From Pyxidicoccus trucidator (GTDB taxonomy: Bacteria > Myxococcota > Myxococcia > Myxococcales > Myxococcaceae): 64,000 nucleotides of DNA. The stretch lies in contig NZ_JAAIXZ010000027.1 of the NCBI RefSeq assembly GCF_010894435.1, positions 62,001 to 126,000 of the forward strand, written 5' to 3'. Both the position numbers and the translations under genes were made by a program. Positions 2,485 to 34,299 of this stretch are shown here, piece after piece. The notes beneath the pieces are model-generated. The model made no database searches. It saw only the letters and a list, made by a program, of their open reading frames with translations, and was not told where the DNA came from. Position 1 is the stretch's first letter, and every line of letters begins with the position of its first letter.

Positions 2485-3927
2485 TCACAGCAGGTCGTCT
2501 TCAGGCTCCGAAGGATCCGCCGGGGCTTCATTCTTCTTCTCGGGCGCCCCACCTGACGGGGACGGGGCCGCGGCGCCGCCGGCCGGAGTGACCTGCGCGG
2601 GCGTGCCGGTGGCGGAGGCGGGCGTCACGGTGCCCGCGGGCTGCGGGGCCGGCGGAGCGGTCTTCTCCGCGGCCTGCATCTGCGCCTGCTGCTTCTTCTG
2701 CAGCGCCTCCATCTGCTTCGCCTGCTCCTCGGCGTGCGTCGCCTCGCGCTTGGCGTTGACGATGGCCTCCGCCTCGCGCAGCAGCCCGAAGACGGGCGAC
2801 TCGGCGGACAGGGCCACGTCGCCGCCGGCCATGGCGATGTACTTCTTGTACAGCTCCACGGCGCGCTCGGGGGCGTCCTTCACCTTGTGGAGGAGGACGG
2901 CGCGGTTGAGATTCACCGCGGCGAGCTCGGGGTCCAGCTTCTCGGCCTCGTCGTACTCCTGCATGGCCTTGTCGAACTGGCCCTGGCCCTTGTAGGCGAT
3001 GCCCAGGTTGAGGTGCGCGGTGGCGCTCTTCCCGTCCGCCTGGAGGATGCGGCGCAGGTGCTCCTCGGCCTCGGGGAAGTCCTCGGCCTCCAGCGACAGC
3101 TGCGCCAGCTCCACGTGCGAGGGCACGTAGTCGTCACGCACCTCGAGCGCCTTCTTGAAGGACAGCCGCGCCTCGTCCTTGTTGTTCTCCTTGAGGAGGA
3201 TGAGGCCCACCGCGTGGTGCAGCTCCGGGTCCGCCGCGTCCAGCTTCACGCCCCGCAGCGCCACCAGCTTCGCCATGGCCAGCTGCTTGCGGTCCAGGTA
3301 GCTGCGGATCATCACCTTCAGCGCGGTGGTGGAGTTGGGGTCGCGCATCAGCGCGCCCCGCGACAGGTCCATCGCCTTGTCGTGGTCTCCCTGCTGCCGG
3401 TAGATCTCCGCCAGGCGGGCGCGGGACTGGGCGTCGTCCGGGTAGCGCTGCAGCACCTCCTGGTAGAGGGCCACCGCGCCGGCGACGTTGCCGGCGTTCT
3501 GCTCCATGACGGCCATGTTCTCCGCCGCCTGGCGCAGCGAGGGCTTCTTGGCGAGCGCCGCCTTGTAGTGCGCGCGCGCCTCGTTGGCCTTGCCCTGGCG
3601 CTCGGCGATGACGCCCAGGTTGTAGTCGGCCTCCGCCAGGTTGGCGTCGGACTCCAGGGCCAGCTTGAACTTCCGCTCCAGCGACGGGTAGTCGAAGGCC
3701 TTGGCCTTCTTCTGCGCGTCGAACGCCTTCACGGCGTCCTCGAAGCGGGCCTTTGCGGTGTTGGAGATGGGCGCCGCCGCCGGCTCCTTGCCGGTCTGCG
3801 CCGTCGTGGGGGACTTCGTCGGCGTGGTGGGGCCGGTGGCCTTGGAGGCCGTGCAGCCGGCGGCCACGAGCGACGTGGCGACCAGAAGGGGGAACAGGCG
3901 CATGGTACGGGTCGTGGTCCGGTTCAT
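2485..3927 (-). CDS. gltE: TPR lipoprotein GltE (AglT)
   Basis: A 480-residue lipoprotein of the gliding complex. It has a short signal peptide with lipobox VAAGC at residues 21-25, then a Thr/Pro-rich tether. Residues about 60-390 form tetratricopeptide repeats (recurrent A-x-Y/H-x-N-L-G and ALAL-type helices such as ADYNLGVIAERQG and AHLNLGIAYKGQG). A Lys/Gln-rich coiled segment and a Pro/Ala-rich acidic tail follow. The protein probably sits in the outer membrane facing the periplasm and scaffolds other Glt proteins. Its ATG overlaps the gltD stop by one base (TAATG), with GGAGG about 10 bases upstream, so translation is likely coupled. A second Met at residue 9 is a possible alternative start. 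Confidence 0.85.
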   Translation of the reverse strand: MNRTTTRTMRLFPLLVATSLVAAGCTASKATGPTTPTKSPTTAQTGKEPAAAPISNTAKARFEDAVKAFDAQKKAKAFDYPSLERKFKLALESDANLAEADYNLGVIAERQGKANEARAHYKAALAKKPSLRQAAENMAVMEQNAGNVAGAVALYQEVLQRYPDDAQSRARLAEIYRQQGDHDKAMDLSRGALMRDPNSTTALKVMIRSYLDRKQLAMAKLVALRGVKLDAADPELHHAVGLILLKENNKDEARLSFKKALEVRDDYVPSHVELAQLSLEAEDFPEAEEHLRRILQADGKSATAHLNLGIAYKGQGQFDKAMQEYDEAEKLDPELAAVNLNRAVLLHKVKDAPERAVELYKKYIAMAGGDVALSAESPVFGLLREAEAIVNAKREATHAEEQAKQMEALQKKQQAQMQAAEKTAPPAPQPAGTVTPASATGTPAQVTPAGGAAAPSPSGGAPEKKNEAPADPSEPEDDLL

Positions 3928-6900
3928 TAAAGGAAGTCCTCCGGCTCCTCGTCAGCCCCACCCTGCTTCGCGGGTGTGGTGCCGTCCTTGGAAGCGGCGG
4001 GCTTGGAGTCCACCTGCGTCTCCGTCTGCGAGCGCAGCTGCTGGGTGAGGTCCGTCAGGTCCTCGTTCAGCTCCGCCGCCTTCGTCTTCTGCGACTCGGC
4101 CACGGCCTTGGGCGCCGGCGGGGGCACGTCCTGGATGGAGGCCAGCAGGTCTCCGCCGATGAGCTGGGCGCGGCCCTTGAGGGCCACCTTCTCCTCGGGC
4201 ATGTCCGGGAAGCGGTCCGGCGCGTACGTGGTGCGCAGCATCTTCAGGCTCTCCGCCGCGCAGTCGTTGTACACGTCCAGCTCGCGGCTCTTGGTCACCG
4301 TGGCGGCGAACGCCTCGGTGGCCTTGTCCTTGAGCGGCTGGGCCTGGTTGGCGAACTCGTCGCGCAGGGCCTGCTGCGCCTCCTCGTCCAGTCCTCGCGG
4401 CATGGGCGCGTTGATGACGCGGTCGGCGAAGTGGTCATACGCCAGGCCGATGCGGTGCAGGGCGCAGATGGCCGGCTCGGGCGCGCCCAGGGCCACCGTC
4501 TGCACGTACTTCTTCTCCACCACCTGCAGCGCGCGGCTCTTGTCCTGGATGCTGCCCCGGAAGCGGTCCGGCGACGGCGGAGCACCCCAGAACAGCTTCA
4601 GCCGCTTGTACTCCTGCCAGTCCAGCTCCACCGCCAGGAACTGCGCCTGGGCAGAGGTGGCCAGCGCCGGCTTCTCCAGCGAGGACTGCACGCGACGGGG
4701 CAGCTGGTCGAAGTGCTCGTAGACGCGCTTGTACATGCGCGACACGTCCCGCGACTTCCCCATCTTCTTGTAGAGGTCGATGATGCGCCCCTCGGCCGAC
4801 AGGAACTTGCTGGCCGAGCGCATGTTGTCGCGCTCGTACTCTTCCAGCATCTTGATGGCGCGCATGCCACCGCCGCTCTTGCCCGTCAGGTCGATGATGG
4901 ACATGCGGATTTCATCCGCGTCCTTCGCCTTGGGCCACAACTCCAGGTAGCGCTCGCGGTTGCGCAGCGCCGCCTTCGTCTGGCCCAGCCCCGCGCGGTA
5001 GGTGGAGGCGTTGAACAGCGCCACCTGCGCCTTGGACTCCTCCCACTTCTGCGGGACGGCCGGCTTGTCGTCGCCCTTCTTGTTGCGCGACTTGCCAGCG
5101 CCCTTCTCCGTGACGCTGCGCTCGTAGCCACGCACGTAGGCCTCGTAGGTGCCCGCCGCGTCCTCGAAGTCGCCGATGGCCTCCAGCGCCTCCGCGTTGG
5201 CGTAGATGGAGTCCGGCACGTACTTGGACCGCGGGTACTGCGCGAACAGGCGCTTGCGCACGTCAATCGCCTTATCGAGCATCTTCGCTTTGTAGTAGTC
5301 GACGGACGCGTTGTAGAGCGCCAGGTCGGCGATCTCCGTCTGAGGGAAGTCCTTCACGAAGGACAGGTACGCCTCGGCGGCCTTCTCGAACTCCTTCTTC
5401 TCCTCCAGCTGGCTGACGAGCTTGAAGGACGACTGCTCGATGAGCTTGGCCAGGTCGTCGCGGAACTTGCCCACCGCCAGCTTGTCGTTGGCGTAGAAGC
5501 GCCGCGCCCACTCGTTCACCTTCGCGAAGTTCTGCAGCAGGTTGTACGAGTCGAGGATGAGGTTGGCGGCGATCTCCGACGCGCGCTCGCCGGTCTCGAA
5601 CTTGTAGTCCGGGTAGCCCAGCGCGATTTCGCTGAAGCGCAGCACCGCCTCGTCGAAGTGGTTGTGGCGGTAGTAGATGTTGGCCGCCTTGAAGGCGATC
5701 TCCACCCGCTTGTCGCCCTTGGGCACGTACTTGAGGTAGCGCTCGCACGCGTCGAGCAGCGCCTTCTTCAGCGTGGGGATGGTGGCCTTCTTGGTGATGT
5801 CCGTGCCCACCGCCTCGGTCTTGCTCTCGCCGCTCGCCTCGCCGGCCTTCACGACTTCGTCATAGGCGAGCACCGCGTTGTAGGCGGCGTTCTGCAGCCA
5901 CTTGCCCGGCTTGCCCGGCTTCGGCTTGCCCTTGTCGTCCTTGGCCTCCAGCACCTTCGCGTCCTGGAGGACGACGAGCGTGTAGTTGGCGGCGGCCTTG
6001 TCGTACTTCTGCAGGTTGTCGTTGAGGAGCTCGGCCCAGAAGAAGCGCAGGTCGTACGCCTTGGGGTTCTCCGGGAAAAGCGTGAGGTAGTCGCTGTACA
6101 CGGCGTCCGCGTACCGGAACGTCTCCTCGTTGCGCGTCTTCTTGCCCTCGTTGTGCCAGGTGACGGCGAGGTTGGACAGGGTGCGCTCGGACAGCTCCTT
6201 CGCCTCCGCCAGCAGCTTCTTGTCCTTGTCGTCCTTGATGACGCCGGAGGACTCGACCTCCTTCATGATCTTCACGAGCCGGCGCACCTGGGCCACGGTG
6301 CGCTCCTTGTTGCCCATGCGGAGGATGCAGTCGACGATCTTCCCCTGGAAGCCGGGCGCCTCGGGCGACAGCGGCTTCTCCTTGATGAGGGCGTTGAAGG
6401 TGATCGCCGCCTCGCGGTCCTTGCCGTCCCCGTAATAGAGGTTGGCCAGCTGCTTCATCATCGCGAAGCGGTCGTCGGGGTTGGTGGCCACCTTGCCGAA
6501 GTCCGCGCGGGCCTGCGCCACGTCACCCTGGTGGGCGTACGCGCGCACGTAGTCGGTGCGCGCCTCGCGCACCAGCGAGTTCTTGCCGTTCTTGCCGCCG
6601 TCCTTCTCCACCGCGTTGGCGCCGGCCAGCTCGCCGTAGAGCACCACCGTCTTGAACTTGTCCTTGGCGGCCTCGTAGTCGCCCATGTTGTAGTGACACC
6701 AGCCCTGCTTGTAGAGGGCGAAGGCGTACACCTGGCTCTCGGGGAACTCGGCGGTCTTCTTGTAGGCGGCCAGCGCCTTCTCCAGCTCCGGGCGCTTTCC
6801 CTTCGAGTTGTTGAAGTAGTACTCGCCGAACGCCAGGTACGCGTCGGGGATGTACTTGGACTTGGGGTACTTCTCGACCAGCCGCTTGAAGGCCACCAGC

Positions 6901-7481
6901 GCCTTGCGATCCTGCCCCTCCTCCATGAGGTACTGGCCGAGGAAGAAGAGCACCTCGTCGGTGCGCTCGAACTTCGGGTGCTCCTGGACGATCTTCGTGT
7001 ACTGCTCCACCGCGAGCTTGCCGTACTCCTTCTGCTTCGCGGTCAGCTCCGCCTTCTCCGCCTTGGCGCGCTGCTGGCCCATGGCGTCGTTGCGGTTCAT
7101 CGCCTTGAGGAGCTCGTCGTCCTTCCGGTTGGCCTCGAAGAAGTAGAACTTCGACTCCTCCCAGTAGAACTCGCCCAGGCGGAACAGGAGGCTGGGGACC
7201 TCCCTCGGATCCGGCGACAGGGAGATGATCTTCTTCAGCGACTGGATCTGCTCGCGGCGCTTGGAGGCCACCTGCAGCTCCACGCCCAGTCGGAACTGGT
7301 CGTACTGGAGGGCTGGGGCGACCTCTTCCTTCTTCTTTTCACGGGTGATGTCGCCAGCCAGGGACTTGTCCACCGCAGTGGCGGACTTCCGGCCGAGATC
7401 GGCATCGCGCGTGGCTTTCTTTTCCTGGGCGGCGGAGGCCGTGGCCAGGAGCACGAGGCAGACGAGAAGCGAACGGCGCAT
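3927..7481 (-). CDS. gltD: Large periplasmic TPR protein GltD (AgmU)
   Basis: A 1184-residue TPR protein and the first gene of gltD-E-F-G. The signal peptide MRRSLLVCLVLLATASA ends near residue 18. Almost the whole mature protein is helical repeats of TPR/YfgC-type character, with recurring motifs such as YPDYKF, YPKSKYIPDAYLAFGEYYF and QYPRSKYVPDSIY. The C-terminus is Lys/Asp-rich and ends PEDFL. AgmU/GltD of Myxococcus xanthus is a periplasmic scaffold of the gliding machine, and this length and repeat content fit. The open frame runs upstream to 7766, but an AGGAAG ribosome binding site and the signal peptide identify 7481 as the start. A candidate promoter lies about 95 bases upstream. 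Apart from export and protein interaction, no catalytic motif is visible. Confidence 0.87.
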   Translation of the reverse strand: MRRSLLVCLVLLATASAAQEKKATRDADLGRKSATAVDKSLAGDITREKKKEEVAPALQYDQFRLGVELQVASKRREQIQSLKKIISLSPDPREVPSLLFRLGEFYWEESKFYFFEANRKDDELLKAMNRNDAMGQQRAKAEKAELTAKQKEYGKLAVEQYTKIVQEHPKFERTDEVLFFLGQYLMEEGQDRKALVAFKRLVEKYPKSKYIPDAYLAFGEYYFNNSKGKRPELEKALAAYKKTAEFPESQVYAFALYKQGWCHYNMGDYEAAKDKFKTVVLYGELAGANAVEKDGGKNGKNSLVREARTDYVRAYAHQGDVAQARADFGKVATNPDDRFAMMKQLANLYYGDGKDREAAITFNALIKEKPLSPEAPGFQGKIVDCILRMGNKERTVAQVRRLVKIMKEVESSGVIKDDKDKKLLAEAKELSERTLSNLAVTWHNEGKKTRNEETFRYADAVYSDYLTLFPENPKAYDLRFFWAELLNDNLQKYDKAAANYTLVVLQDAKVLEAKDDKGKPKPGKPGKWLQNAAYNAVLAYDEVVKAGEASGESKTEAVGTDITKKATIPTLKKALLDACERYLKYVPKGDKRVEIAFKAANIYYRHNHFDEAVLRFSEIALGYPDYKFETGERASEIAANLILDSYNLLQNFAKVNEWARRFYANDKLAVGKFRDDLAKLIEQSSFKLVSQLEEKKEFEKAAEAYLSFVKDFPQTEIADLALYNASVDYYKAKMLDKAIDVRKRLFAQYPRSKYVPDSIYANAEALEAIGDFEDAAGTYEAYVRGYERSVTEKGAGKSRNKKGDDKPAVPQKWEESKAQVALFNASTYRAGLGQTKAALRNRERYLELWPKAKDADEIRMSIIDLTGKSGGGMRAIKMLEEYERDNMRSASKFLSAEGRIIDLYKKMGKSRDVSRMYKRVYEHFDQLPRRVQSSLEKPALATSAQAQFLAVELDWQEYKRLKLFWGAPPSPDRFRGSIQDKSRALQVVEKKYVQTVALGAPEPAICALHRIGLAYDHFADRVINAPMPRGLDEEAQQALRDEFANQAQPLKDKATEAFAATVTKSRELDVYNDCAAESLKMLRTTYAPDRFPDMPEEKVALKGRAQLIGGDLLASIQDVPPPAPKAVAESQKTKAAELNEDLTDLTQQLRSQTETQVDSKPAASKDGTTPAKQGGADEEPEDFL

Positions 7482-7574
7482 GGTCTTCCTAAGGGAGGGG
7501 GACCGGCGTCCCCGGTAGCTTGCCTGCTCGGCAAGTATCCGGGAATCTTCGGGAATTTCCATTCGGGGCTCGCA

Positions 7575-7604
7575 ACTATGCGCGGTTTTCCCGTAGCGGG
7601 TCAA
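7575..7604 (-). promoter_or_regulatory. Candidate promoter of the glt operon
   Basis: On the minus strand, TTGACC (7604-7599) is separated by 18 bases from CATAGT (7580-7575), about 94 bases upstream of the gltD start. This fits a housekeeping sigma-70-type promoter of moderate strength in a 283-base divergent intergenic region (7482-7764). The same region must also contain the promoter of the rightward gene at 7765, for which I see no clear hexamers. Confidence 0.4.
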
Positions 7605-7764
7605 CCCTGACTGGCCGGCTGCTTCCTTGTTGGAAAGCAAGCCGGAAATCTTCCAGAAGCGCTGTGAAAAAGGGGGTTCTGGAGTTGCCTTGTCGGACCC
7701 AGCGGGTATGGGGGAGCAGACGGCCGGCTGCTCGGCTGCCCTGCACTGGAGTACGTGTCGGATC

Positions 7765-8418
7765 ATGAGTCTCCTCCCCGAGAGCGCCAGCTTCGAAGAG
7801 CTGGTGCAGGACTACTTCCTCGCGGTGCGTGGCGCGGGGTTGATGCTGTCCGCGCTGGACACGGAGCTTTTGACGACCTGGGCCCGGGAGGGAGTTCCCT
7901 TCGAAGTGGTGGCGCGCGGCATCAACCGCTCGGCGGAGAAGGCGCTGTGGGACGCGCGGCCCGGGGAGCCGGTGCTGCGCTCGCTGCGCGCGTGCCGGCG
8001 GCAGGTGGAGGCGGAAATCAAGAAGTACCGCGAGCTGGCGGCGGGCGCCGGGGCGCCGGAGTCGCACACGCGGAAGAAGCGGGCCCGCTCCTGGGAGGAG
8101 ACGCGGCACGCGCGGCTGTGCACGGTCCTGGACGACCTGGCGGGGCGGGAAGAGGCCCTGTCGGCCCGGGTGCGGCACCTGCGCATCACCGTGCTGGCCC
8201 ACGTCCCCGAGGAGCCGGCGGCCATGGACGCCCAGGAGGCGCTGGCCTTCCTGCTGCTGCTGCGCGCCCTCCCCTTCGCGGAGCGACGGGCGGTGTGGCG
8301 CGAGGCGCACGGGGCGGGAGCGGAGCAGCAGGTGATGTCGGCGCGGGCGCGGCGGGTGTCACGGCGCTTCCGGGTGCTGGCGGCGGTGAGGCGGCGGTTG
8401 GGCGTGAAGGAAGTGTGA
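7765..8418 (+). CDS. Helical protein of unknown function beside a DnaC-like ATPase
   Basis: I do not recognise a named family in this 217-residue protein. It is predicted helical throughout, rich in Arg and Ala, with no signal peptide or membrane span. The N-terminal 60 residues (FEELVQDYFLAVRG, TTWAREGVPFEVVARGI) recall the DnaD-like C-terminal fold, in which a tryptophan segment is followed by a helix ending in small residues. It is 58 bases upstream of a DnaC/IstB-like ATPase on the same strand, so the two are probably co-transcribed and may act in helicase loading. The frame is open further upstream, but ATG 7765 fits the start of recognisable coding sequence better. The ribosome binding site is weak. 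The replication role is inference. Confidence 0.7.
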   Translation: MSLLPESASFEELVQDYFLAVRGAGLMLSALDTELLTTWAREGVPFEVVARGINRSAEKALWDARPGEPVLRSLRACRRQVEAEIKKYRELAAGAGAPESHTRKKRARSWEETRHARLCTVLDDLAGREEALSARVRHLRITVLAHVPEEPAAMDAQEALAFLLLLRALPFAERRAVWREAHGAGAEQQVMSARARRVSRRFRVLAAVRRRLGVKEV

Positions 8419-8476
8419 GAGGGAGGCCCGCCTGCTCACCCGTTCAGTTGGCGAATGGGCAGGGGAAGGCTCTGCT

Positions 8477-9460
8477 ATGGCGATGCGCGACACGGGTGCG
8501 AAGGCGATGGGCGAGGCGGCATGTGGCGTGTGCGGTGGGCGGACCTATGTGCTCGAGCGGCATGGAGACCAGGCCCAGGCGAGGATCTGCGCGTGCTCGG
8601 AGAGCTGCTCCGTGTGCGGTGGGCGTGGGCACGTGCTGGTGGAGCGTGAGGGCACCTTCAGCCAGAAGATGGGGCCGCGGCGCTATGAGGTGATGGAGCC
8701 GTGCGTGTGCACCCGGCGGCGGCGGCGCGTGTCCCTCTTCAACGACGTGGGGCTGCCCGGGGTGGTGGCTCACGCGAGCTTCGACAACTACCGGGCCTTC
8801 AACGAGGCGCAGGACCGGGGTCGAGGCGTGGCCATGACCTTCGCCCACCAGTACACGAAGGGCGGCACGGACGCGAAGGGAGGCCCGGCAAAGGGCTTCA
8901 TCCTCAGCGGGCCGGTGGGCACGGGGAAGACGCACCTGATGGGGGCCACGCTGGGGCACCTGGTGCTGGAGGTCGGCATCCGGGCCCGGTACGTGGAAAT
9001 CTCCCTGCTGTACGCGACCATCCGGCGAGGCTTCCAGGACGGCAAGAGCGGCGGAGAAATCATCGGCCCGCTGTCGGACGTGGAGGTGTTGGCCATCGAC
9101 GAGCTGGGCAAGGGACGTGGCAGCCCGTTCGAGATGGAGACGCTCGATGAGCTGATCGCCCGCCGCTACAACGCGGGGCGCACCACGCTCTTCGCGACGA
9201 ACTACTCGCTGGAGCCGGAGAAGAAGGCCGTGCGGGCGCCCGCGCCCGCCGGCTACCGGACGACGGAGGACTCGCGCAACGCGGCCCGCGAGGCGGAGCT
9301 GCTGCGCGAGCGCGTGGGTGAGCGCATCTACAGCCGGCTCTGCGAGATGTGCACCTTCGTGGAGCTGCCCCGGGACACGCCGGACCGGCGCCGCACGCGG
9401 CAGGAGATGGACTCGCCCATGCACCATTCGCCGGGCGGGATGCGCGGCATGGGGCGGTAG
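8477..9460 (+). CDS. DnaC/IstB-like AAA+ ATP-binding protein with N-terminal cysteine clusters
   Basis: A 327-residue cytoplasmic AAA+ ATPase of the DnaC helicase-loader/IstB type. Residues 16-78 hold CxxC-type pairs (16/19, 38/40, 44/47, 76/78) that could bind zinc or form a DnaJ-like zinc finger (CGVCGG, CSVCGG). The ATPase core has Walker A GPVGTGKTH at 145-153, Walker B VLAIDEL at 204-210 and sensor-1 TTLFATNY. A basic C-terminal helix with a likely arginine finger (RIYSRL) follows. A GGGAAGG ribosome binding site precedes ATG 8477. No transposase lies beside it, which argues for a chromosomal DnaC/DnaI-like helper rather than an insertion-sequence IstB. Its partner in the cell, perhaps the replicative helicase, is inferred. 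Confidence 0.85.
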   Translation: MAMRDTGAKAMGEAACGVCGGRTYVLERHGDQAQARICACSESCSVCGGRGHVLVEREGTFSQKMGPRRYEVMEPCVCTRRRRRVSLFNDVGLPGVVAHASFDNYRAFNEAQDRGRGVAMTFAHQYTKGGTDAKGGPAKGFILSGPVGTGKTHLMGATLGHLVLEVGIRARYVEISLLYATIRRGFQDGKSGGEIIGPLSDVEVLAIDELGKGRGSPFEMETLDELIARRYNAGRTTLFATNYSLEPEKKAVRAPAPAGYRTTEDSRNAAREAELLRERVGERIYSRLCEMCTFVELPRDTPDRRRTRQEMDSPMHHSPGGMRGMGR

Positions 9461-14475: not shown

Positions 14476-15669
14476 CTACCCTCCGAGCAGCTCCCGGTGG
14501 ACCCTCGCCGTCAGGGGCTTCAGGTGGGCCTTCTCCACCAGCAGCGTGAGCTGCAGCGGCGAGGTGTGCACGGCGTACACCCGCGCTCCCAGCTCCTCCG
14601 CCGCCGCCAGCGCCTGCCGCAGGGGCACCCAGTCCGCGTTCAGCCCCACGCCCACGCAGGTGACGGTGCCCAGGTCCTCCCGCCAGGCCACCGCCTCGCC
14701 GAAGCGCGTGGCCAGGTCCTTGCGAAGCGCATCCACCCCGTGGATGTCCGCCAGCGGCACGGCGATGGAGGTGCGTCTCGCACCTTCCGGCGGCCCGTCG
14801 AAGCCCAGCGTCCGGCCTCGCACGCCGCGCGCATCCAGGAACTCCAGCAGCTCCGCCAGCGGCACCTGCTCGGTGGCGGACAGCACCGCCATCTCCGGCT
14901 CGGCCGTGACGCCCTTCACCCGGGAGTCGGCGGGGCCGGACAGCTCCTGCACCACCGTGCCCGTCCCCTGCCCGTGCGCGGTGCGGGCGAGGATGGCGAT
15001 TCCCCGCGCCTTGGCCCACTCCACCGCCTGCGCGTTGAGCACCTTGGCGCCCGCGCTCGCCAGCTCCTGCATCTCGTCGTAGCTCAGCGACTCCAGCTTG
15101 CGCGCGTCCGGCACCACCCTCGGGTCCGCGCTGAAGACGCCGTCCACGTCGGAGAGAATCTCACACGCCTCCGCGTCCAGCGCGGCCGCCAGCGCCACCG
15201 CCGTCGTGTCCGAGCCGCCGCGCCCCAGCGTGGTGACCTCCTTCTTGTGGGAGACCCCCTGGTAGCCCGCGACGATGACCACCTTCCCCCTCGCCAGCTC
15301 GTCGTGGATGCGGAAGGGCCGCACCTCGACGATTCGGGCCTGTGAATGCGCATCCGTGGTGATGATGCCGCTCTGACTGCCGGTGAAGCTGATGGCCGGC
15401 ACGTCCATCTCCTGGAGCGCCATGGACAGGAGCGCCATGGAGATGCGCTCCCCGCACGTCAGCAGCATGTCCAGCTCGCGCCGCGGCGGGTCCGCCGACA
15501 CGCCCTTGGCCAGCGCCAGCAGCTCGTCCGTGGTGTCGCCCATGGCGCTCACCACCACCACCACCTGGTAGCCCCCGTCGCGCTTGTCCTTCACGCGCCT
15601 CGCCACCTTGCGAATCTTCTCCACGTCGGCGACCGAGGAACCGCCGTACTTCTGCACCACGATTGGCAT
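14476..15669 (-). CDS. lysC: Aspartate kinase
   Basis: Aspartokinase (EC 2.7.2.4) phosphorylates aspartate as the first step toward lysine, threonine, methionine and diaminopimelate. The 397-residue protein opens with VQKYGGSSV (kinase N-terminus) and carries the nucleotide/substrate region [17 protein letters not shown] followed by [16 protein letters not shown]. The C-terminal third contains two ACT regulatory domains ([11 protein letters not shown]... and [15 protein letters not shown]...), suggesting amino-acid feedback control. It is a single-function enzyme without a fused homoserine dehydrogenase. Start 15669 is chosen over an upstream in-frame ATG because the protein family begins at that Met. 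It diverges from the ABC cassette at 15890. Confidence 0.93.
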
Positions 15670-15776
15670 GGACGCCTCACTACCCCTGTTGGCGTGGCCG
15701 GAAAACCACACCGGAGCCCCTTTATGCAGGAGTCCGGCCAGCCGAGAGTGCCCGCGCCCGGGTGGCGGCGCTCGCC

Positions 15777-15804
15777 TTGACAGGCGAAAGTCAGCTTTTA
15801 TATT
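15777..15804 (+). promoter_or_regulatory. Strong sigma-70-type promoter of the ABC cassette
   Basis: A perfect TTGACA (15777-15782) is followed after 16 bases by TATATT (15799-15804), inside an AT-rich patch unusual for this genome. It points rightward to the ATP-binding gene at 15890 and would give a leader of about 80 bases. It is the best-matching housekeeping promoter in the window. Confidence 0.75.
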
Positions 15805-15889: not shown

Positions 15890-16618
15890 ATGCCGATGAT
15901 CGAGGTGCAGCACCTCACCAAGCGCTACCGCGACCGGGTGGCCGTGGAGGACCTCACCTTCAGTGTCGAAGAGGGTGAGATTCTCGGCTTCCTCGGCCCC
16001 AATGGCGCGGGCAAGTCCACCACCATGAAGATCCTCACCGGGTTCCTGCCGCCGTCGGCGGGCACGGCCCGGGTGGGGGGCTTCGACGTCTTCGAGCAGC
16101 CGCTGGAGGTGAAGCGCCGCATCGGCTACCTGCCGGAGACGCCGCCGCTCTACCCGGAGATGACGGTGCGCGGGTACCTCAAGTTCGTGGCGTCCCTGAA
16201 GGGACTGCCCGGACGGGGCCTCAAGGCCGAGGTGGAGCGGGTGGCCGGCCTCACCGGGGTGACGCACGTCCTGGAGCGCGTCATCCAGAACCTCTCCAAG
16301 GGCTACAAGCAGCGCGTCGGCATTGCGCAGGCGCTGCTCGGCTCGCCGCCGGTGCTCATCCTCGACGAGCCCACCGAAGGGCTGGACCCCACGCAGCGCG
16401 CCGAGGTCCGCGCCCTCATCAAGGGGCTGGCCGGCAAGCACACCGTCATCCTCTCCACGCACATCCTCCCGGAAGTCACGATGACGTGCGAGAAGGTGCT
16501 CATCATCAACCAGGGGAAGATCGTCGCCTACGACGAGATCCGCAAGCTGGCCAGCCTCCACGGCCAGGCGGAGAGCGTGTCGCTGGAAGAGATCTTCATC
16601 AAGCTGACCGCCGCCTGA
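15890..16618 (+). CDS. ABC transporter ATP-binding protein (GldA/CcmA type)
   Basis: A 242-residue ATPase of a type-2 ABC exporter. Walker A is GPNGAGKST, the Q-loop region is YLPETPPLYPEMTV, the signature is LSKGYKQR, and Walker B is VLILDEPTEGLDP, followed by the switch histidine (LSTHI). The C-terminus is short, as in GldA/NatA-type proteins. It starts a four-gene unit with a permease, a large membrane-anchored periplasmic protein and a DUF4340-type protein, the arrangement called gliding-associated ABC transporter in Flavobacterium. ATG 15890 has GGGAG about 8 bases upstream; ATG 15896 is an alternative. The transported substrate is unknown. Confidence 0.88.
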   Translation: MPMIEVQHLTKRYRDRVAVEDLTFSVEEGEILGFLGPNGAGKSTTMKILTGFLPPSAGTARVGGFDVFEQPLEVKRRIGYLPETPPLYPEMTVRGYLKFVASLKGLPGRGLKAEVERVAGLTGVTHVLERVIQNLSKGYKQRVGIAQALLGSPPVLILDEPTEGLDPTQRAEVRALIKGLAGKHTVILSTHILPEVTMTCEKVLIINQGKIVAYDEIRKLASLHGQAESVSLEEIFIKLTAA

Positions 16619-16638
16619 GCGGCCCAAGGAATCCATCC

Positions 16639-17442
16639 ATGCGCACCGCCCTGGCGATTGCCCGCAAGGAGCTGTCCATCTACTTCACCACCCCGTGGGC
16701 CTACGCGGTCTTCACGGCGATGGTGGCGCTGTCGTCGTTCTTCTTCGTGGACCTGCTGCAGAAGTTCAAGCAGGTGCAGGACATGGCGCGGGTGATGGGC
16801 TGGGAGCAGATGCCCCCGGACTTCAGCGTGTACCGCAACCTCACGGACGGGGTGGTGGTGCAGTTGTGGGGCACCGTCCTCATCGTCACCCTCTTCGTGG
16901 CGCCCTTCCTCTCCATGCGGCTGTTCGCGGAGGAGAAGCGCAACAAGACCTTCGAGCTGCTGATGACGGCGCCGGTGCGCCCCATCGAAATCGTGCTGGG
17001 CAAGTACCTGGGTGGGCTGGGCATCATCTCCGCCACCCTGGGGCTCACCATCGTCTTCCCGCTGATTCTGGCCGCGTTCGGCAAGGCCGAGTCCGGCATC
17101 GCGCTGGAGTGGTCCACGGTGCTGCTGGGCTATGGCGGGCTGCTGGTGTGGGGCGCCACCTGCATGGCGGTGGGGCTGTTCATCTCCGCGCTGACGGAGA
17201 GCCAGATGCTGGCGGCCTTCCTCACCTTCTCCGTGCTGCTGCCGTGGATGCTGCTGTCCGGCGTGTCTCAGGGCGTGGAGGAGCCGCTGCGCTCGGTGCT
17301 GGCGTACCTCTCCTTCGACGCGCAGCTCCAGAACATGCTCAAGGGGGTGATGGACGTGCAGTCGCTGGTGTTCTTCGCCTCGGTCATCGTCTTCTCACTG
17401 CTGCTCACCCACCGCACGGTGGAAGCGCAGCGCTGGTCTTGA
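16639..17442 (+). CDS. ABC-2 type permease, GldF-like
   Basis: A 267-residue integral inner-membrane protein with about six membrane spans (WAYAVFTAMVALSSFFFVDLL, IVTLFVAPFLSMRLF, LGIISATLGLTIVFPLILAAF, and three more). It carries the family motif LFAEEKRNKTFELLMTAPV in the first cytoplasmic loop, which contacts the ATPase. This matches the GldF/NosY class of ABC-2 permeases. It lies 20 bases after the ATPase gene and 8 before the next gene, so it is clearly in one operon. The frame is open upstream inside the ATPase gene, but ATG 16639 gives the canonical N-terminus MRTALAIARKEL. The substrate is unknown. Confidence 0.88.
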   Translation: MRTALAIARKELSIYFTTPWAYAVFTAMVALSSFFFVDLLQKFKQVQDMARVMGWEQMPPDFSVYRNLTDGVVVQLWGTVLIVTLFVAPFLSMRLFAEEKRNKTFELLMTAPVRPIEIVLGKYLGGLGIISATLGLTIVFPLILAAFGKAESGIALEWSTVLLGYGGLLVWGATCMAVGLFISALTESQMLAAFLTFSVLLPWMLLSGVSQGVEEPLRSVLAYLSFDAQLQNMLKGVMDVQSLVFFASVIVFSLLLTHRTVEAQRWS

Positions 17443-17450
17443 GGACCGCC

Positions 17451-19022
17451 ATGAACGCGTCCAACGTTGGAAAGGGGCTCGGGGCCTTCGGGCTCCTGCT
17501 CCTGCTGTCGAGCCCGTTCACCCTGTTCGTCACGTCGGGCAGCCTCATGGCCGCTGGCGTGAAGGCGGGCCTCGGCCTGCTGCTGCTGGGGGCGTACTTC
17601 GCCACCAACTTCAAGCAGTTCGGCCAGTTCGCCTCGCGCAAGTCGAGCTTCTTCTTCGCCACCACGGTGCTCACCGCGGCGGTGGTGCTCGCCGGGCTGG
17701 TGGCGGTGAACTACATCGCCTTCAAGAAGAACCAGCGCTGGGATTTGACGAAGGAGAAGATCTACACGCTGGCGCCGCAGACCACGGCCACGCTGGGGGC
17801 CTTGCCGGACAAGGTGCGTGCCTTCGGCTTCATCCCGCCCTCGCACCCGTACTACGGCCTGCTGGAGGAGCTGTTCCAGCGCTACCACGCGGAGGCACCG
17901 GAGAAGTTCGAGTACTCCTTCAAGGACCCGCGCCGCAGCCCGGACCTGGCCGCGAAGTACCAGCTCAAGGAGGGCCAGACGACGGTGGTGCTGGTGCGTG
18001 GCGAGGGCGACACCGCGGCGCACACCACGCTCAACACCCTGTCCGAGCAGGAGCTGACCAACGCCCTGGTGAAGCTCAGCGCGGTGGGCTCGCAGAAGGT
18101 CTACTTCGTCACCGGCCATGGCGAGTGGCCTCTCCAGAAGGAACAGGCGTCGCCCACGGACCCGGGCGCCAGCCTGTCCGAGCTCATCCGCCAGCTCCGG
18201 CAGGAGGGCTACACCCCGGAGGCGCTGAACCTCGCGGGGAAGACGGAGGTGCCGAAGGACGCCTCGCTCGTCATCATCGCCGGAGCGAGGGCGCCGTTCG
18301 CGAAGCCGGAGGTGGAGACGCTTCAGCGGTACCTGTCCACGGGTGGACGGATGCTCTACTTCGCGGACGCGGGGCTGCAGGACGGCCTGGACGCGCTGCT
18401 GGCCGAGCATGGCGTGCAGGTGGATGAGGGCATCGCCGCGGACACGCAGTTCAACAGCGGCAACCCGTACGTGGTGCTGTCGCCCTTCTACAGCGAGCAC
18501 GACATCGTCAAGCCGATGCGGGCGCGCGGGCTGAACATCGAGTTCCCCACCGCGCGCAGCCTGTCCGTGCTCCGTGGCGGCCTGGCGCCGGGCGTGAAGG
18601 TGGAGCCGGTCGTGCACACCTCGCAGTACGGCTGGGTGGAGACGAAGCCGGACGAGAACGCCATGCCGTCGGACGGCGAGAAGACGGGCCAGCTCACGCT
18701 GGTGGTGGCCGTCACGCGGGACACGAAGGAGTCGCAGGACAAGCGCTTCGACCAGGCGCGGCTGGTGGTGGTGGGTGACTCCGAAATCCTCCTGGACCCG
18801 AACTGGGGGCACGAGCCCAACCGCAACCTGGTGATGAACTCGCTGGGCTGGGCGTCCAACCAGATACAGAAGATCACCATCCGCCCGCCGGACCGCGAGG
18901 TGTCCACGCTGGAGCTGGACGAGGCGTCGATGGACGGCATCCGCTTCGTGTCCACGGACCTGCTGCCCCTGTCCCTGCTGGGCATGGGGCTGGCCATCTG
19001 GCTCTCGAGGCGCAACAAGTGA
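17451..19022 (+). CDS. GldG-like ABC-associated periplasmic protein
   Basis: A 523-residue membrane-anchored protein of the GldG/DUF4350-like ABC auxiliary family. Three spans lie in the first 95 residues, and a large extracytoplasmic domain follows. It opens with RWDLTKEKIYTLAPQT and includes VYFVTGHGEWPL, LVIIAGARAPF and GGRMLYFADAG, a Rossmann-like pattern of this family. A final span lies near the C-terminus (LLPLSLLGMGLAIWL) before SRRNK. GldG works with GldF and GldA in Flavobacterium, where their loss affects gliding. In other phyla the family is linked generally to ABC export. The stop codon overlaps the next gene by four bases. Confidence 0.85.
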   Translation: MNASNVGKGLGAFGLLLLLSSPFTLFVTSGSLMAAGVKAGLGLLLLGAYFATNFKQFGQFASRKSSFFFATTVLTAAVVLAGLVAVNYIAFKKNQRWDLTKEKIYTLAPQTTATLGALPDKVRAFGFIPPSHPYYGLLEELFQRYHAEAPEKFEYSFKDPRRSPDLAAKYQLKEGQTTVVLVRGEGDTAAHTTLNTLSEQELTNALVKLSAVGSQKVYFVTGHGEWPLQKEQASPTDPGASLSELIRQLRQEGYTPEALNLAGKTEVPKDASLVIIAGARAPFAKPEVETLQRYLSTGGRMLYFADAGLQDGLDALLAEHGVQVDEGIAADTQFNSGNPYVVLSPFYSEHDIVKPMRARGLNIEFPTARSLSVLRGGLAPGVKVEPVVHTSQYGWVETKPDENAMPSDGEKTGQLTLVVAVTRDTKESQDKRFDQARLVVVGDSEILLDPNWGHEPNRNLVMNSLGWASNQIQKITIRPPDREVSTLELDEASMDGIRFVSTDLLPLSLLGMGLAIWLSRRNK

Positions 19023-20539
19023 ACCAGACACAGAAGAACCTGGTGACGTTGCTGGCCCTCACCGCCGCGGCGGCGGGGCTGGGCCTCTACGCGTGGTACG
19101 GCGTGAAGGAGCCCGAGGAGCGCAAGGCCGAGCACAAGGAGGTGACGGAGCAGCTCTTCGCCGCCCACGAGGCCGGCGAGAAGGGCGAGGACGGTGGTGC
19201 TCCGCCGGCGCCCGTCTTCACGCAGCTCACGGTGAAGGCGAGCGGCGGCACCACGGAGCTGGTGCGCGAGAAGGACGGCACCTGGAAGGTCACTGCCCCC
19301 GTGTCCGCCCGCGCGGAGGCGTCCGTGGTGGAGGCCATCACGAGCACGCTGGCGTCGTCGAAGTTCGCCGCCACCGTGGAGGAGGCGCCCACCAACGCGG
19401 ACCTGGAGAAGTACGGGCTGAAGACGCCGGTCTTCACCGTGACGGCGAAGGCGTACGTGAGCGACCCGTCGCGGGAGCGCACGGTGACGCTGTACGGTGG
19501 CATCGAGAACACCTTCGACGGCTCCGTCTACGTGCGGCGCGAGGGAGACCCGAAGGTGTATGCCGCGCCGGGCGCGGTGCGCTGGTCGCTGGACAAGGAC
19601 ACCTTCACGCTGCGCTCGAAGGAGTTCCTCGGGCCGCTGGAGGAGCCCTCGCTCCAGAGCATCGAGGTGAAGGCCAGGGCGAACGCGTACCTGCTGGCGC
19701 GCGACACGGCTGGGACGGGGTGGCGGCTGGTGAAGCCGGTGGCGGTGCGCGCGGACGAGGTGAAGGTGGCGGACCTGCTGTCGGGGCTGAAGGAGCAGCG
19801 GGCGCTGTCCTTCCCGACCGACACGGCGGAGGCTCGCAGGAAGCTGGGCCTGGAGGCGCCGGTGGTGGACGCGCGCTTCACGCCGACGACCGGCGAGCCG
19901 GTGCGGGTACGCCTGTCCGCGGTGTCCGAAGACGGTGCCACGAGGGTGTACGCGCTGCGCGAGCAGGGCGCGCACGCGCTGCTGGGCGAGGTTCCCGAGC
20001 ACGCGCTGACGCTGCTGGACGTGGGCGTGCCGGAGCTGAAGGACAAGCGGGTGCTGGACTTCCGTCGCGAGGACGTGAAGCGCGCGGTGTTCCACCCGGG
20101 CGGCGGCGCGGAGCCCATCACCGTGGTGAGCGTGTCCGGCACGGACGGCGGCGCCGGGGTGTGGGAGGTGGAGTCTCCGAAGCGCGGCAAGGCGCAGCAC
20201 TTCAGGGTGGTGTCGGTGCTGGGCTCGCTGGACACCTTCAAGGCGTCGGGCTTTGGCGAGGCGAAGCCGAAGAATTGGGCGAAGTACGGCCTCACCGACG
20301 CGTCGAAGGGCGCGGTGCTGCACGGGGCGGACGGGAAGGAGCTGGCGCGGCTGTGGCTGGGCAACGAGGTGAAGGACAAGCCCGGCACGGTGTACGCGCG
20401 CGGCTCCGGGCCGGACGTGCTGGAGGTGTCCGCCACGTGGGTGGAGCTGCCCACGAAGCCGGAGGACCTGCTACAGCCCCCGCCCTCCCCCGCCGGTACC
20501 GACGGTGGGCCGGACGCGACGGCCACGCCCACGCCGTGA
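19019..20539 (+). CDS. DUF4340-type membrane-anchored protein
   Basis: A 506-residue protein with one N-terminal membrane anchor (LVTLLALTAAAAGLGLYAWYG) and a large extracytoplasmic region. That region has repeated TTELVREKDGTWKVTAPV-like beta modules typical of DUF4340, which is found next to GldG-like genes in many bacteria. The tail is Pro/Thr-rich (TDGGPDATATPTP). It starts with GTG at 19019, overlapping the TGA of the preceding gene (GTGA), so translation is coupled. It is the last gene of the cassette and converges on the SET-domain gene 18 bases further. The biochemical role is unknown; a substrate-handling or complex-stabilising role outside the membrane is inference. Confidence 0.85.
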   Translation: MNQTQKNLVTLLALTAAAAGLGLYAWYGVKEPEERKAEHKEVTEQLFAAHEAGEKGEDGGAPPAPVFTQLTVKASGGTTELVREKDGTWKVTAPVSARAEASVVEAITSTLASSKFAATVEEAPTNADLEKYGLKTPVFTVTAKAYVSDPSRERTVTLYGGIENTFDGSVYVRREGDPKVYAAPGAVRWSLDKDTFTLRSKEFLGPLEEPSLQSIEVKARANAYLLARDTAGTGWRLVKPVAVRADEVKVADLLSGLKEQRALSFPTDTAEARRKLGLEAPVVDARFTPTTGEPVRVRLSAVSEDGATRVYALREQGAHALLGEVPEHALTLLDVGVPELKDKRVLDFRREDVKRAVFHPGGGAEPITVVSVSGTDGGAGVWEVESPKRGKAQHFRVVSVLGSLDTFKASGFGEAKPKNWAKYGLTDASKGAVLHGADGKELARLWLGNEVKDKPGTVYARGSGPDVLEVSATWVELPTKPEDLLQPPPSPAGTDGGPDATATPTP

Positions 20540-31391: not shown

Positions 31392-31934
31392 GTGACAGGA
31401 ACGAGCCAGCCGGTCCTCAAGGTGATTCCAGGTGGAGCCCACCCGGACCGGCGGGCCCTCATGCGCGAGCTGTACACGAAGTACGGCGGCAGTGTGATGG
31501 GACGCTGCCGCTACCTGCTGAAGGACGCGACGAAGGCAGAGGACGCGATGCACGACGTGTTCGCCCGCGCCCTCACCCATGGCGAGGACTTCCGTGCGGA
31601 GGCCTCGCCGCTGACGTGGCTGATGAAGATTGCAACGAATCACTGCCTCAACCAGCTCCGCTCCGAACAGGCGGGCTGGCGGCGGTGGTTCGAGCGGGAC
31701 GAGGCGGCGCGCTCGGAAGGGCATGGAGGCCAGGGCGAGATGGAGACGCGCGACCTGGTGCGCCGGCTGCTGTCGAAGGTGGATGTGGAGACGCAGGCGG
31801 CGGTGGTCCACTACCACGTGGACGGGATGACACTGGAAGAGGTGGCGGCGATGCTGGGGCGCTCGGTCCCCACCATCCGCAAGAGGCTGGAGCGCTTCGC
31901 CGAACTGGGCGGAGAGGAGCTGAGGGTTCCATGA
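31392..31934 (+). CDS. ECF-type RNA polymerase sigma factor
   Basis: A 180-residue sigma-70-family ECF sigma factor that directs RNA polymerase to a specific regulon. Region 2 is visible as MRELYTKYGGSVMGRCRYLLKD..AEDAMHDVFARAL with TWLMKIATNHCLNQLRS. Region 4 follows as VVHYHVDGMTLEEVAAMLGRSVPTIRKRLERF (helix-turn-helix). The start is GTG 31392, with no strong ribosome binding site, 24 bases after the lipoprotein gene. Its TGA overlaps the ATG of the anti-sigma gene. It likely controls its own operon, as ECF factors usually do, but no promoter motif for it was identified. Confidence 0.92.
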   Translation: MTGTSQPVLKVIPGGAHPDRRALMRELYTKYGGSVMGRCRYLLKDATKAEDAMHDVFARALTHGEDFRAEASPLTWLMKIATNHCLNQLRSEQAGWRRWFERDEAARSEGHGGQGEMETRDLVRRLLSKVDVETQAAVVHYHVDGMTLEEVAAMLGRSVPTIRKRLERFAELGGEELRVP

Positions 31935-32707
31935 GCGCGCACGAGTCGGAGTGGACATTGCGCCGCCTGAGCGCCGGAGAGCTGGCCGCCGCCGAGGCCG
32001 CCCGGGTCCAGGCCCATGCGACCTCCTGCACGGTGTGTGGCCCGGCCCTCCGCGAGCTTCAGCAGGAGCAGGCCCGCTTCGAGACGGCGGTGCCCTTCGA
32101 GCGCTTCGAGGCAGGCGTGGAGCGCGCGGTGCAGCGGCAGCGGCGGAGCGAGTCCTTCCGCGCGCCCCCTCGCCGCTGGGTGGCGACGACGGTGGCGATG
32201 GCCGCCTCGGTGCTGGTGGTGCTCCTGGTCCGGCCCCTGCTGGGTGACGTGGGCCGGGAGACGGGCACCAATCGAATCAAGGGCGGCGCGGTGGCGGAGC
32301 TGCGCATCGGCGGTGGCCTGGGCCCGCAGCGCGAGGCCCGCCCCGACGCGCCCGAGGCGCTGGAGCCGGGCGAGCGGGTGATGTTGGGCTACCAGGCGGA
32401 TGGGCACCGGTACGTGGCGGCGGTGTCGGTGGACGCCATCGGCGAGGTGACGCCGCTGCACCCGGAGTCGGGCACCAGCCCCGCGGTGGAGTCCGGGACG
32501 GACATGCACTGGCTGCCGGACAGCTGGGAGCTGACGGGCTCCGGCGCCGAGCGTGTGGTGCTGGTGCTGCTGGACGCGCCCCTGCCCGTGGACACGCTGG
32601 TGGACGCGGCGAAGCGCGCCTTCCAGGCGGCGAACGGCGACGTGGAGCACATGGCGCCGCTCGACGTGCCGGGTGAGCAGACGCACTGGGTGCTGCTGAA
32701 GCCATGA
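31931..32707 (+). CDS. Zinc-finger anti-sigma factor with one membrane span
   Basis: A 258-residue predicted anti-sigma factor. The N-terminal domain has an H-x3-C-x2-C zinc site (HATSCTVC at about residues 33-40), as in zf-HC2/ASD anti-sigma factors. A single span (WVATTVAMAASVLVVLLV) follows near residue 85. The periplasmic part is beta-rich (DUF4384-like: VMLGYQADGHRYVAAVSVDAIGEVTPLHPESG) and would sense an envelope signal. It overlaps the sigma factor gene and the caspase gene by ATGA at both ends, giving tight stoichiometric coupling. By family logic it holds the sigma factor at the membrane until a signal releases it. Confidence 0.85.
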   Translation: MSAHESEWTLRRLSAGELAAAEAARVQAHATSCTVCGPALRELQQEQARFETAVPFERFEAGVERAVQRQRRSESFRAPPRRWVATTVAMAASVLVVLLVRPLLGDVGRETGTNRIKGGAVAELRIGGGLGPQREARPDAPEALEPGERVMLGYQADGHRYVAAVSVDAIGEVTPLHPESGTSPAVESGTDMHWLPDSWELTGSGAERVVLVLLDAPLPVDTLVDAAKRAFQAANGDVEHMAPLDVPGEQTHWVLLKP

Positions 32708-34299
32708 GCGCCCTCCCCTCCACCCTCCGGGCCCTGGCCGTGGCGCTCGCCCTGGTGGCGACAGCCGCGCACGCCGACGTGCTGCGCCGCTTCGCGCTGG
32801 TGGCCGGCAACGACGAGGGCGGCGGCGACACGCGCCCCCTGCGCTTCGCCCAGGACGACGCGCGGAAATTCCACTCGCTGCTCCAGCGGCTGGGCGGCGT
32901 GGCCCCGGGTGACGCGAAGCTGCTGCTCAACGAGGACTCGAAGGACTTCCTCAAGGCGCTGGCGGAGCTGGAGGCCCGCACTCGCGAGGCCCGCGCCCGG
33001 GGCGAGCGCACCGCGCTCATCGTCTACTACTCCGGCCACGCGAAGGACGGCTCGCTGCGGCTGGGCGACTCGCGGCTGGGCTTCGAGGACCTGAAGCGCC
33101 GGCTGTCGGAGGCGCCCGCGGACATGCGCATCGCCATCCTGGACTCGTGCCGCTCCGGCACGCTGACCCGGACGAAGGGCGCGCGGCGGGCCCCGGCCTT
33201 CGAAATCGAGTCCGGGGCTGCACGGGACGCGCGCGGCCTGGTCATCCTCACCTCGAGCGCGGCGGACGAGGACTCGCAGGAGTCGGACGCGCTGGGCGGC
33301 AGCTACTTCTCGCACCACCTGGCCAGCGGCCTGCTGGGCGACGCGGACCGCAGCGGCGACGGCCGGGTGACGCTGTTCGAGGCGTACTCGCATGCGTACG
33401 CGCGCACGGTGGCGGACACGGCGGCCAGCAGCGCGGGCCCGCAGCACCCCACCTTCAGCTACGACCTCGCGGGCAACGGGGACCTGGTGCTGACGGACCT
33501 GCGGGCCAGCGGCGAGGGGCTGCTGGTGCCGGGCGCGGCCCCCGCGGGCCTGTACTACTTCGTGGACCCGGGCGGCATGGTGGTGGCGGAGCTGGACAAG
33601 ACGGTGGACGTGGAGCGCCGCGTGGCGCTGGCGCCGGGGACGTACCGGGTGAAGCGCCGCCTTCAGGACCGGCTGCGCATCGGCGAGGTGGAAGTGCCCC
33701 GCGGGCGCGCGACGGTGCTGGAGGAAGCGCGGCTGCGCGACGCCCCCTTCTCCGACGACCCGGTGAAGGGCGAGGCGCGGGACGGCGGCGCGTGGTGGAC
33801 GGTGGGGCTGTCGGGCGGCGTGCAGTCCTTCCTCGACGCGCCCACGCGCGACACGCTGTTCCTCTCCGTGGGCCTGCTGGGCGCGGAGGCGCAGCTTCAC
33901 GACTACTTCCGCCGGGACTGGGTGTGGGGCGTGGACGTGGCGGTGGGCGGGAAGCAGGCGGTGCTGGCGCTGCCCACGCTGGCCGGGCCGGCCTACCGCT
34001 ACTCGGTGACGAGCCTGGGCACCACGCTCACCGCCGAGTGGCCGAAGGGCCGCATCACTCCCTTCGTGGGCGGGCGGATGGCGTACCTCATCCTCCGGCG
34101 CGACTTCGACGACGACGCGTTCCCGGACCAGAAGTTCTCCATGTTCTCCCCGGGCCTGGTGACGGGGCTGCGCTGGAAGCCGCTGTCGCGCGTGCACCTC
34201 ACCGGGCAGGCCCGGCTCCACTACCTCCAATACACCGTCGATGAGCAGCGCTCGCTGGGCTACTGGGAGCTGGGCGCGCTCCTCACCTACCAGCCATGA
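32704..34299 (+). CDS. Exported caspase-family (peptidase C14) protein with C-terminal beta-barrel
   Basis: A 531-residue protein. A signal peptide (cleavage after AHA, residue 24) is followed by a caspase-like fold. Catalytic His112 lies in YYSGHA and Cys149 in LDSCRSG, both intact, with upstream LVAGNDEG and DDARKF typical of C14 peptidases. GGSYFSHHLASGLLGDAD..GDGRVTLFEAYSHAY completes the domain at about residue 245. A beta-sandwich linker leads to a C-terminal region (about residue 360 on) of alternating strands ending ELGALLTYQP, which reads as an 8-strand outer-membrane barrel. It overlaps its neighbours by ATGA at both ends. Being exported, it may cut periplasmic proteins; its substrate is unknown. 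Confidence 0.87.
   Translation: MSALPSTLRALAVALALVATAAHADVLRRFALVAGNDEGGGDTRPLRFAQDDARKFHSLLQRLGGVAPGDAKLLLNEDSKDFLKALAELEARTREARARGERTALIVYYSGHAKDGSLRLGDSRLGFEDLKRRLSEAPADMRIAILDSCRSGTLTRTKGARRAPAFEIESGAARDARGLVILTSSAADEDSQESDALGGSYFSHHLASGLLGDADRSGDGRVTLFEAYSHAYARTVADTAASSAGPQHPTFSYDLAGNGDLVLTDLRASGEGLLVPGAAPAGLYYFVDPGGMVVAELDKTVDVERRVALAPGTYRVKRRLQDRLRIGEVEVPRGRATVLEEARLRDAPFSDDPVKGEARDGGAWWTVGLSGGVQSFLDAPTRDTLFLSVGLLGAEAQLHDYFRRDWVWGVDVAVGGKQAVLALPTLAGPAYRYSVTSLGTTLTAEWPKGRITPFVGGRMAYLILRRDFDDDAFPDQKFSMFSPGLVTGLRWKPLSRVHLTGQARLHYLQYTVDEQRSLGYWELGALLTYQP

Follow-up and report, generated by a model that had tools for sequence, protein, structure and literature searches.

Gld-type ABC cassettes and the locus in Pyxidicoccus trucidator

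In Flavobacterium, GldA, GldF, and GldG are required for a T9SS-linked gliding system that differs from Glt gliding. There, the stability of GldJ and GldK needs GldA, and that of GldK also needs GldF (PMC9127263; references by PMC number are to excerpts of the articles). The gldA gene of Flavobacterium johnsoniae (Fjoh_1516) lies apart from gldFG (Fjoh_2722/2721), as judged by locus tag (PMC9127263). Genes like gldA, gldF, and gldG occur in Proteobacteria and Cyanobacteria irrespective of gliding, and some gliding flavobacteria have no GldF/GldG (PMC7440613). Such trios are described outside Bacteroidota in Bdellovibrio (Bd1023-Bd1025) and Thiothrix nivea (Thini_0004.00016770-16790); we compared these by their genes alone, and the excerpt mentions no DUF4340 partner (PMC3368414). 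Here we analyzed a 64,000-nucleotide stretch of Pyxidicoccus trucidator DNA (contig NZ_JAAIXZ010000027.1, positions 62,001 to 126,000; the window), which contains ATP-binding cassette (ABC) genes of this type next to a DUF4340 gene. Our preferred reading, to which we give a probability of about 60%, is that this cassette is an old, apparently vertically inherited envelope ABC machine rather than a component dedicated to the Agl-Glt motor of adventurous (A) motility.

The cassette is a tight four-gene unit at 15890-20539 on the plus strand. It begins with a GldA-like ABC ATPase of 242 amino acids (15890-16618; Pfam ABC_tran, E 4.3e-31; best NCBIfam model TIGR03522, GldA) and continues with a GldF-like ABC-2 permease of 267 amino acids (16639-17442; Pfam ABC2_membrane_2, E 3.1e-13; NCBIfam TIGR03518, GldF), a GldG-like protein of 523 amino acids (17451-19022; ABC_transp_aux, E 5.7e-27; DUF7088, E 2.7e-7; IFT52_GIFT, E 1e-6; best NCBIfam model TIGR03521, GldG), and a DUF4340 protein of 506 amino acids (19019-20539; Pfam DUF4340, E 1.1e-40, in three stretches) whose gene has a GTG start and overlaps the stop of the GldG-like gene. 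Both ABC_transp_aux (PF09822; 95.1 vs 34.7 bits) and DUF4340 (PF14238; 140.3 vs 25 bits) score above their Pfam gathering values. An earlier note on this DNA had placed GldA-, GldF-, and GldG-like genes plus a DUF4340-type gene here, and the Pfam and best NCBIfam matches agree with it. The NCBIfam equivalog cut-offs were not reached by GldA (282.9 of 402.6 bits), GldF (99.2 of 288.5), or GldG (55.3 of 389.85), and no NCBIfam model matched the DUF4340 protein. Because these scores are far below the curated cut-offs, "Gld-type" is right for the cassette but "GldA/F/G" as a statement of equivalogs is not.

The window thus shares three like protein kinds with F. johnsoniae, each with a Gld model as its top NCBIfam hit, but differs in that all fall below equivalog level and are encoded in one unit with DUF4340. 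DUF4340 is also annotated in PA4040 of Pseudomonas aeruginosa, which we compared by annotation (PMC8088628), and in VSP_RS39600 of Verrucomicrobium spinosum, described with an essential domain (PMC12283558); the excerpts of both articles give no mechanism for it. The archaeal family arCOG01314 (DUF4350) has HHpred similarity to GldG and was proposed to belong to a secretion complex, but it is accompanied by a vWA-domain protein and a COG0714 AAA+ ATPase (PMC5898192), whereas the window cassette is an ABC unit. We recognized no paper on the cassette in Myxococcus and no mutant data in a literature search that left subscription papers, such as A-motility transposon screens, largely uncovered and in which some locus tags were guessed.

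Distribution, gene order, and dissociation from GltD and GltG

The earlier note had placed the cassette 8 kb from A-motility genes, and this holds. The edge of gltD from A-motility cluster G1 (3927-7766, minus strand; a TPR protein of 1279 amino acids) is 8.1 kb from the start of the cassette, with other genes in between. Beyond it on the same strand are gltE (2485-3927; a TPR protein of 480 amino acids) and gltG (84-2006; 640 amino acids, with an FHA domain and a weak TonB_C domain that scores slightly below its cut-off). The three genes fit by domains, order, and length the described proteins of 1191, 471, and 640 amino acids, the last having the same domains (PMC3169522).

Among 195 Myxococcota genomes, a GldG-like match was found in 164 and a DUF4340 match in 141 (both at E<=1e-5), and GltD and GltG were each matched in 186 (E<=1e-10). 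GldG-like and GltD matches were both present in 160 genomes, GldG-like alone in 4, GltD alone in 26, and neither in 5; in this cross-table, 11 genomes with no GldG-like match were identified by elimination. The presence of the cassette did not follow that of the core Glt genes, with 26 exceptions one way and 4 the reverse. The four genomes with only the GldG-like match (G044-G047) all belong to genus g34 and have no GltG match either. Two stretches from this genus (L109, L110) contain lysC and a complete cassette, in which the DUF4340 gene is short (about 175-185 amino acids, roughly one block). All nine genomes of genus g31, which we presume to be Anaeromyxobacter, match GltD and GltG but gave no match to the GldG-like protein. 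Surface motility and A-motility homologues are reported for A. dehalogenans 2CP-C, although the sufficiency of these for gliding is called unknown (PMC2330069), and Anaeromyxobacter has been counted as a potential glider (PMC3169522).

One genome, G060, appears as a natural loss. The order in its gltD stretch (L139; G060:C4:34000-53900) is gltD - g8477 - g10002 - lysC - g29322, and only 0.1-0.2 kb separates lysC from g29322 (about 9196-9293 of the stretch) where relatives have the cassette. GltD and GltG matched in this genome at E 0. Neither permease, GldG, nor DUF4340 profiles matched, even at E 10, in this stretch or in the five other stretches around gltD from genomes with no GldG-like match (together L139-L144). 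When the permease profile was run against ten chosen genomes, matches were strong in G000, G122, G045, G047, and G161, weak (7e-7 to 8e-6) in G060 and G053, and absent from G031, G036, and G144. The cassette and GltD/GltG separate both ways. This, together with the lysC-linked cassette of G044-G047, speaks against the motility link at which the earlier note had hinted; the general envelope role that it offered as the alternative is the better supported of the two.

We then compared 96 loci, consisting of 16 named loci (L045-L060), 73 further cassette stretches, the six gltD stretches, and L066, a second cassette from the window's own genome. Single-sequence searches found ATPase, permease, and GldG-like protein in 90 loci, the other six being L139-L144. 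A DUF4340 gene was found in 81 of these 90 by single sequence and in 89 by iterated profile; the sole locus without one, L145, is a copy truncated at a contig end. In all 8 genes added by iteration Pfam DUF4340 ranked first, in 5 of them above its cut-off. Gene order and strand were identical in all 89 loci with all parts (85 by a gap test and 4 whose stop-to-stop open reading frames overhang). The identity of the GldG-like proteins drops with taxonomic distance and their tree clusters by family, which suggests vertical descent of the cassette. On the same tree L048, from a record titled Comamonas sp. KCTC 72670, falls inside Myxococcus and is probably mislabelled or mixed. Plasmids gave no DUF4340 match and a single distant GldG match, from Subdoligranulum at 27% identity. 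In 14 control genomes, a set that is no measure of wider prevalence, DUF4340 was not found, DUF7088 was found in one, and ABC_transp_aux in two (Synechococcus elongatus and Haloferax volcanii), above its cut-off in one.

The nearest neighbour of the cassette in the window is a divergent lysC-type aspartokinase gene (14476-15711, minus strand; AA_kinase, E 2.3e-54), which lies outside the machine and is the most frequent of the conserved neighbours. When L066 is excluded, 63 of 89 cassette loci have lysC as their divergent neighbour, and 13 of these 63 are from outside family f1. By group, these are 16/16 in L045-L060, 31/31 in L067-L097 (f1), 12/38 in L098-L135 (outside f1), 3/3 in L136-L138, and L145. 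The lysC gap is 3.6 kb in L098 (family f8). For gltD we counted distances among the matches listed, in genomes with both best matches on one contig. It was less than 20 kb away in 60 of 65 such f1 genomes and in one of four outside f1, where distances were 17.5 (G058, family f6), 58.6, 65.7, and 251.7 kb. Among the 31 stretches from f1, each no longer than 20 kb, lysC was found in 31 and gltD in 12. The genes on the other flank, which in the window are an extracytoplasmic function (ECF)-type sigma factor gene and, after it, a gene for a caspase-like peptidase (31392-34299, plus strand), each occurred in about half of these stretches (17 and 16). Because the genes of the other flank are kept in f1 at least as often as gltD, glt proximity is part of a general gene order. 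None of the 38 cassette stretches from outside f1, which likewise span up to 20 kb, contained gltD. There, weak gltG-type matches (26-44 bits) in 5 of the 38 and a weak gltE-type match in one probably represent FHA and TPR proteins. The closeness of cassette and glt genes reflects gene order kept within one family.

Motility genes were also sought as conserved neighbours outside f1, and eight tested proteins from 45 recurrent neighbour clusters gave none. Three of the eight had no Pfam match, and the others were a protein kinase, a Cpn60 chaperonin, an IstB-like ATPase, and two DUF4388/DnaJ-TPR proteins; several of the 45 clusters were antisense shadow reading frames. In the comparison of gene order across Myxococcota that the earlier note had proposed, the order inside the cassette was kept in 89/89 loci and the closeness to gltD was almost wholly confined to f1. 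That note had also held that a cassette widespread and syntenic in non-gliding relatives would count against a motility role. We found this only in kind, in that G044-G047 have the cassette and no GltD or GltG match, with gliding judged from glt genes alone.

Predicted architecture and possible modes of action

NosDFY is a system composed of an ATPase, an ABC-2 permease, and a periplasmic partner. NosFY passes the energy of ATP mechanically to NosD, a beta-helix protein (our literature search returned no match on this transfer). A profile of the cassette permease family had NosY (7o0y_D) as its sole PDB match at E<=1, with a weak E of 0.062, and a single-sequence search with the permease gave none at E<=0.1. 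The periplasmic subunits of NosDFY are of another kind from those of the cassette. The GldG-like protein is predicted to have hydrophobic N-terminal segments, a thioredoxin-like DUF7088 part, a GIFT/ABC_transp_aux part, and a C-terminal helix, and its profile matched IFT52 (1.6e-12) and the thioredoxin-fold protein 1a8l (7.7e-9) in PDB. Cysteine occurs in none of 42 rows of the thioredoxin-like segment, so there is no CxxC motif for thiol-redox chemistry, whereas a GHGE motif is kept in 40 of 42 rows. The predicted model of this protein is poor (mean predicted local distance difference test score, pLDDT, 58.5), and for this reason we relied on its Foldseek matches, which agree with the profile folds, only in combination with the profile search.

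The DUF4340 protein has an N-terminal hydrophobic segment (residues 7-26) as its predicted anchor and three similar blocks, which are also seen in an AlphaFold2 model of fair confidence (mean pLDDT 81.4). The fold had no Foldseek match at E<=0.001 and no PDB profile match at E<=1. The best VIA-align candidate (4q0y_C; Z 5.8 over 109 residues, root-mean-square deviation 3.9) was rejected as below the level trusted. Of the N-termini in the 89 loci, 70 were labelled as hydrophobic helices and 18 as carrying a predicted lipobox (L046-L049, L051, L052, L055, L057, L058, L060, L075-L078, L082, L083, L136, and L137); one locus (L101) gave no start. Labels were given by a simple pattern and a hydropathy value and three were corrected by hand: L069 and L121 to helix, the pattern lying inside helices, and L055 to lipoprotein by its likeness to L077 and L078. 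Lipobox carriers include Myxococcus, Corallococcus, Citreicoccus, L082, and L083, and the window protein keeps the helix form. On a GldG tree built from 58 rows that we chose (18 lipoprotein, 40 helix), made by a quick method with support from the Shimodaira-Hasegawa-like approximate likelihood ratio test only and with long-branch warnings, the well-supported branches force at least three anchor changes. By this count, the predicted anchor changed between its two forms, membrane helix and lipoprotein, three times or more. The +2 residue of the predicted lipoboxes is Thr in M. xanthus L051 and Lys in L058; among M. xanthus lipoproteins, Lys is found at +2 in 8 of 12 inner-membrane ones, and the outer-membrane ones are described as having no conserved residue there (PMC3222651).

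The GldG-like folds, the NosY match, and the DUF4340 blocks lead us to infer that an engine in the inner membrane moves the outward-facing subunits. This engine would consist, to judge from the families, of the ATPase and the GldF-like permease. The GldG-like protein would sit in the same membrane with its cysteine-free thioredoxin-like part and its GIFT part outside the cytoplasm, where it would be joined by the DUF4340 protein, whose repeated blocks would be tethered by a helix or a lipid. ATP hydrolysis would most likely be relayed mechanically to these outward subunits, as in NosFY-NosD, and they may then free an envelope client, fold it, or pass it on. As a tentative and rather unlikely extension, the GldAFG-DUF4340 cassette could be a broadly conserved, still undescribed mechanical envelope ABC machine of which Flavobacterium GldA/F/G would be a specialized relative, with a DUF4340 arm rebuilt at least three times in the window's family between inner-membrane helix and lipoprotein. 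Given such forms as that of M. xanthus L051, with a predicted lipobox that has Thr and not Lys at +2, the arm may in some lineages reach the outer membrane as a trans-envelope device.

Other modes of action have to be weighed. In an ordinary ABC-2 exporter, the substrate moved by the permease would be a lipid, glycan, or peptide, for which the GldG-like and DUF4340 proteins would act as periplasmic acceptors. We consider this possible but doubtful. The permease does match five ABC-2 Pfam families, DrrA is the second-best NCBIfam model for the ATPase, and the GldG profile has a weak match (E 0.26) to WBP1, a subunit of oligosaccharyltransferase (OST). However, the permease profile matched nothing in PDB at E<=1 except, weakly, NosY, which is no classical exporter, and partners as constant as the GldG-like and DUF4340 proteins are unusual for simple exporters. 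The machine might also maintain envelope proteins, and its loss would then hurt gliding secondarily. This is how the effects on GldJ and GldK in Flavobacterium could be extended to myxobacteria, and the gltD linkage kept through f1 is consistent with it, but the gliding flavobacteria with no GldF/GldG and the glt-bearing genomes with no cassette make such an indirect effect unlikely. A direct role in motility is unlikely too, and as a dedicated component of the Agl-Glt machine the cassette is highly improbable in spite of its distance of 8.1 kb from gltD and the close spacing in f1. The nine g31 genomes and G060 have GltD and GltG with no GldG-like match, G044-G047 show the reverse, the other flanking genes share the same synteny, and gltD is missing from all 38 of the stretches (up to 20 kb) outside f1.

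Several observations weigh against our reading of the cassette as an envelope machine separate from the Glt system. The linkage in 60/65 same-contig f1 genomes, together with the 17.5 kb distance in G058 of another family, means that an old tie between cassette and glt genes could exist. GltD is absent from 5 of 31 genomes with no GldG-like match as compared with 4 of 164 genomes with one, which is a weak tendency in the same direction. The five genomes that have neither are 0.3-2.3 Mb in size, and cassette losses may partly reflect genome reduction. The count of 26 genomes with glt and no cassette is an upper figure because some GltD matches are weak (e.g., 3.1e-14 in G173) or possible paralogues. 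In addition, the DUF4340 gene of G044-G047 is short, and the similarity to NosY is weak.

For myxobacteria, these data caution against reading a motility role from Gld-type names or from glt proximity, and they point to an envelope machine widespread in Myxococcota. With the natural loss in G060, the genus with no cassette (g31), and the second copy in the window's genome, the function of the machine becomes testable, and the predicted changes of anchor offer a way to learn where the DUF4340 arm acts. Should the function be worked out, it might also help explain why GldA/F/G matter in Flavobacterium.

The second cassette and the surroundings of the first

The second GldA/F/G-like cassette of this genome is strongly diverged and lies on the minus strand (L066, G000:C1:380000-397000, at 4722-9344 of that locus). 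Its fourth gene was called DUF4340-like by an iterated profile that had absorbed the L066 sequence; Pfam DUF4340 is its only match, below the cut-off (18.6 vs 25 bits), and in a Pfam search of the whole genome the window gene was the sole DUF4340 hit. The GldG-like protein of this cassette also matches DUF4350 weakly. A second cassette in the same genome fits a general module.

Upstream of the window cassette is a sigma-70-like site, TTGACA-N16-TATATT (15777-15804, plus strand), a consensus match that was found once in the upstream region as compared with 0.1 expected in shuffles. Sites scoring at least 9 of 12 were present in 31 of 90 upstream sequences when a simple letter shuffle was used as the control, 30 of these 31 being from the window's class, and were absent from 59, M. 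xanthus L051 included. As a consensus match, the site would fit expression of the cassette independent of glt. Further along, the segment 24097-28788 (minus strand) encodes a protein of 1201 amino acids with weak similarity to aminopeptidase N and, adjoining it, another ABC ATPase, for which DrrA is the best NCBIfam model.

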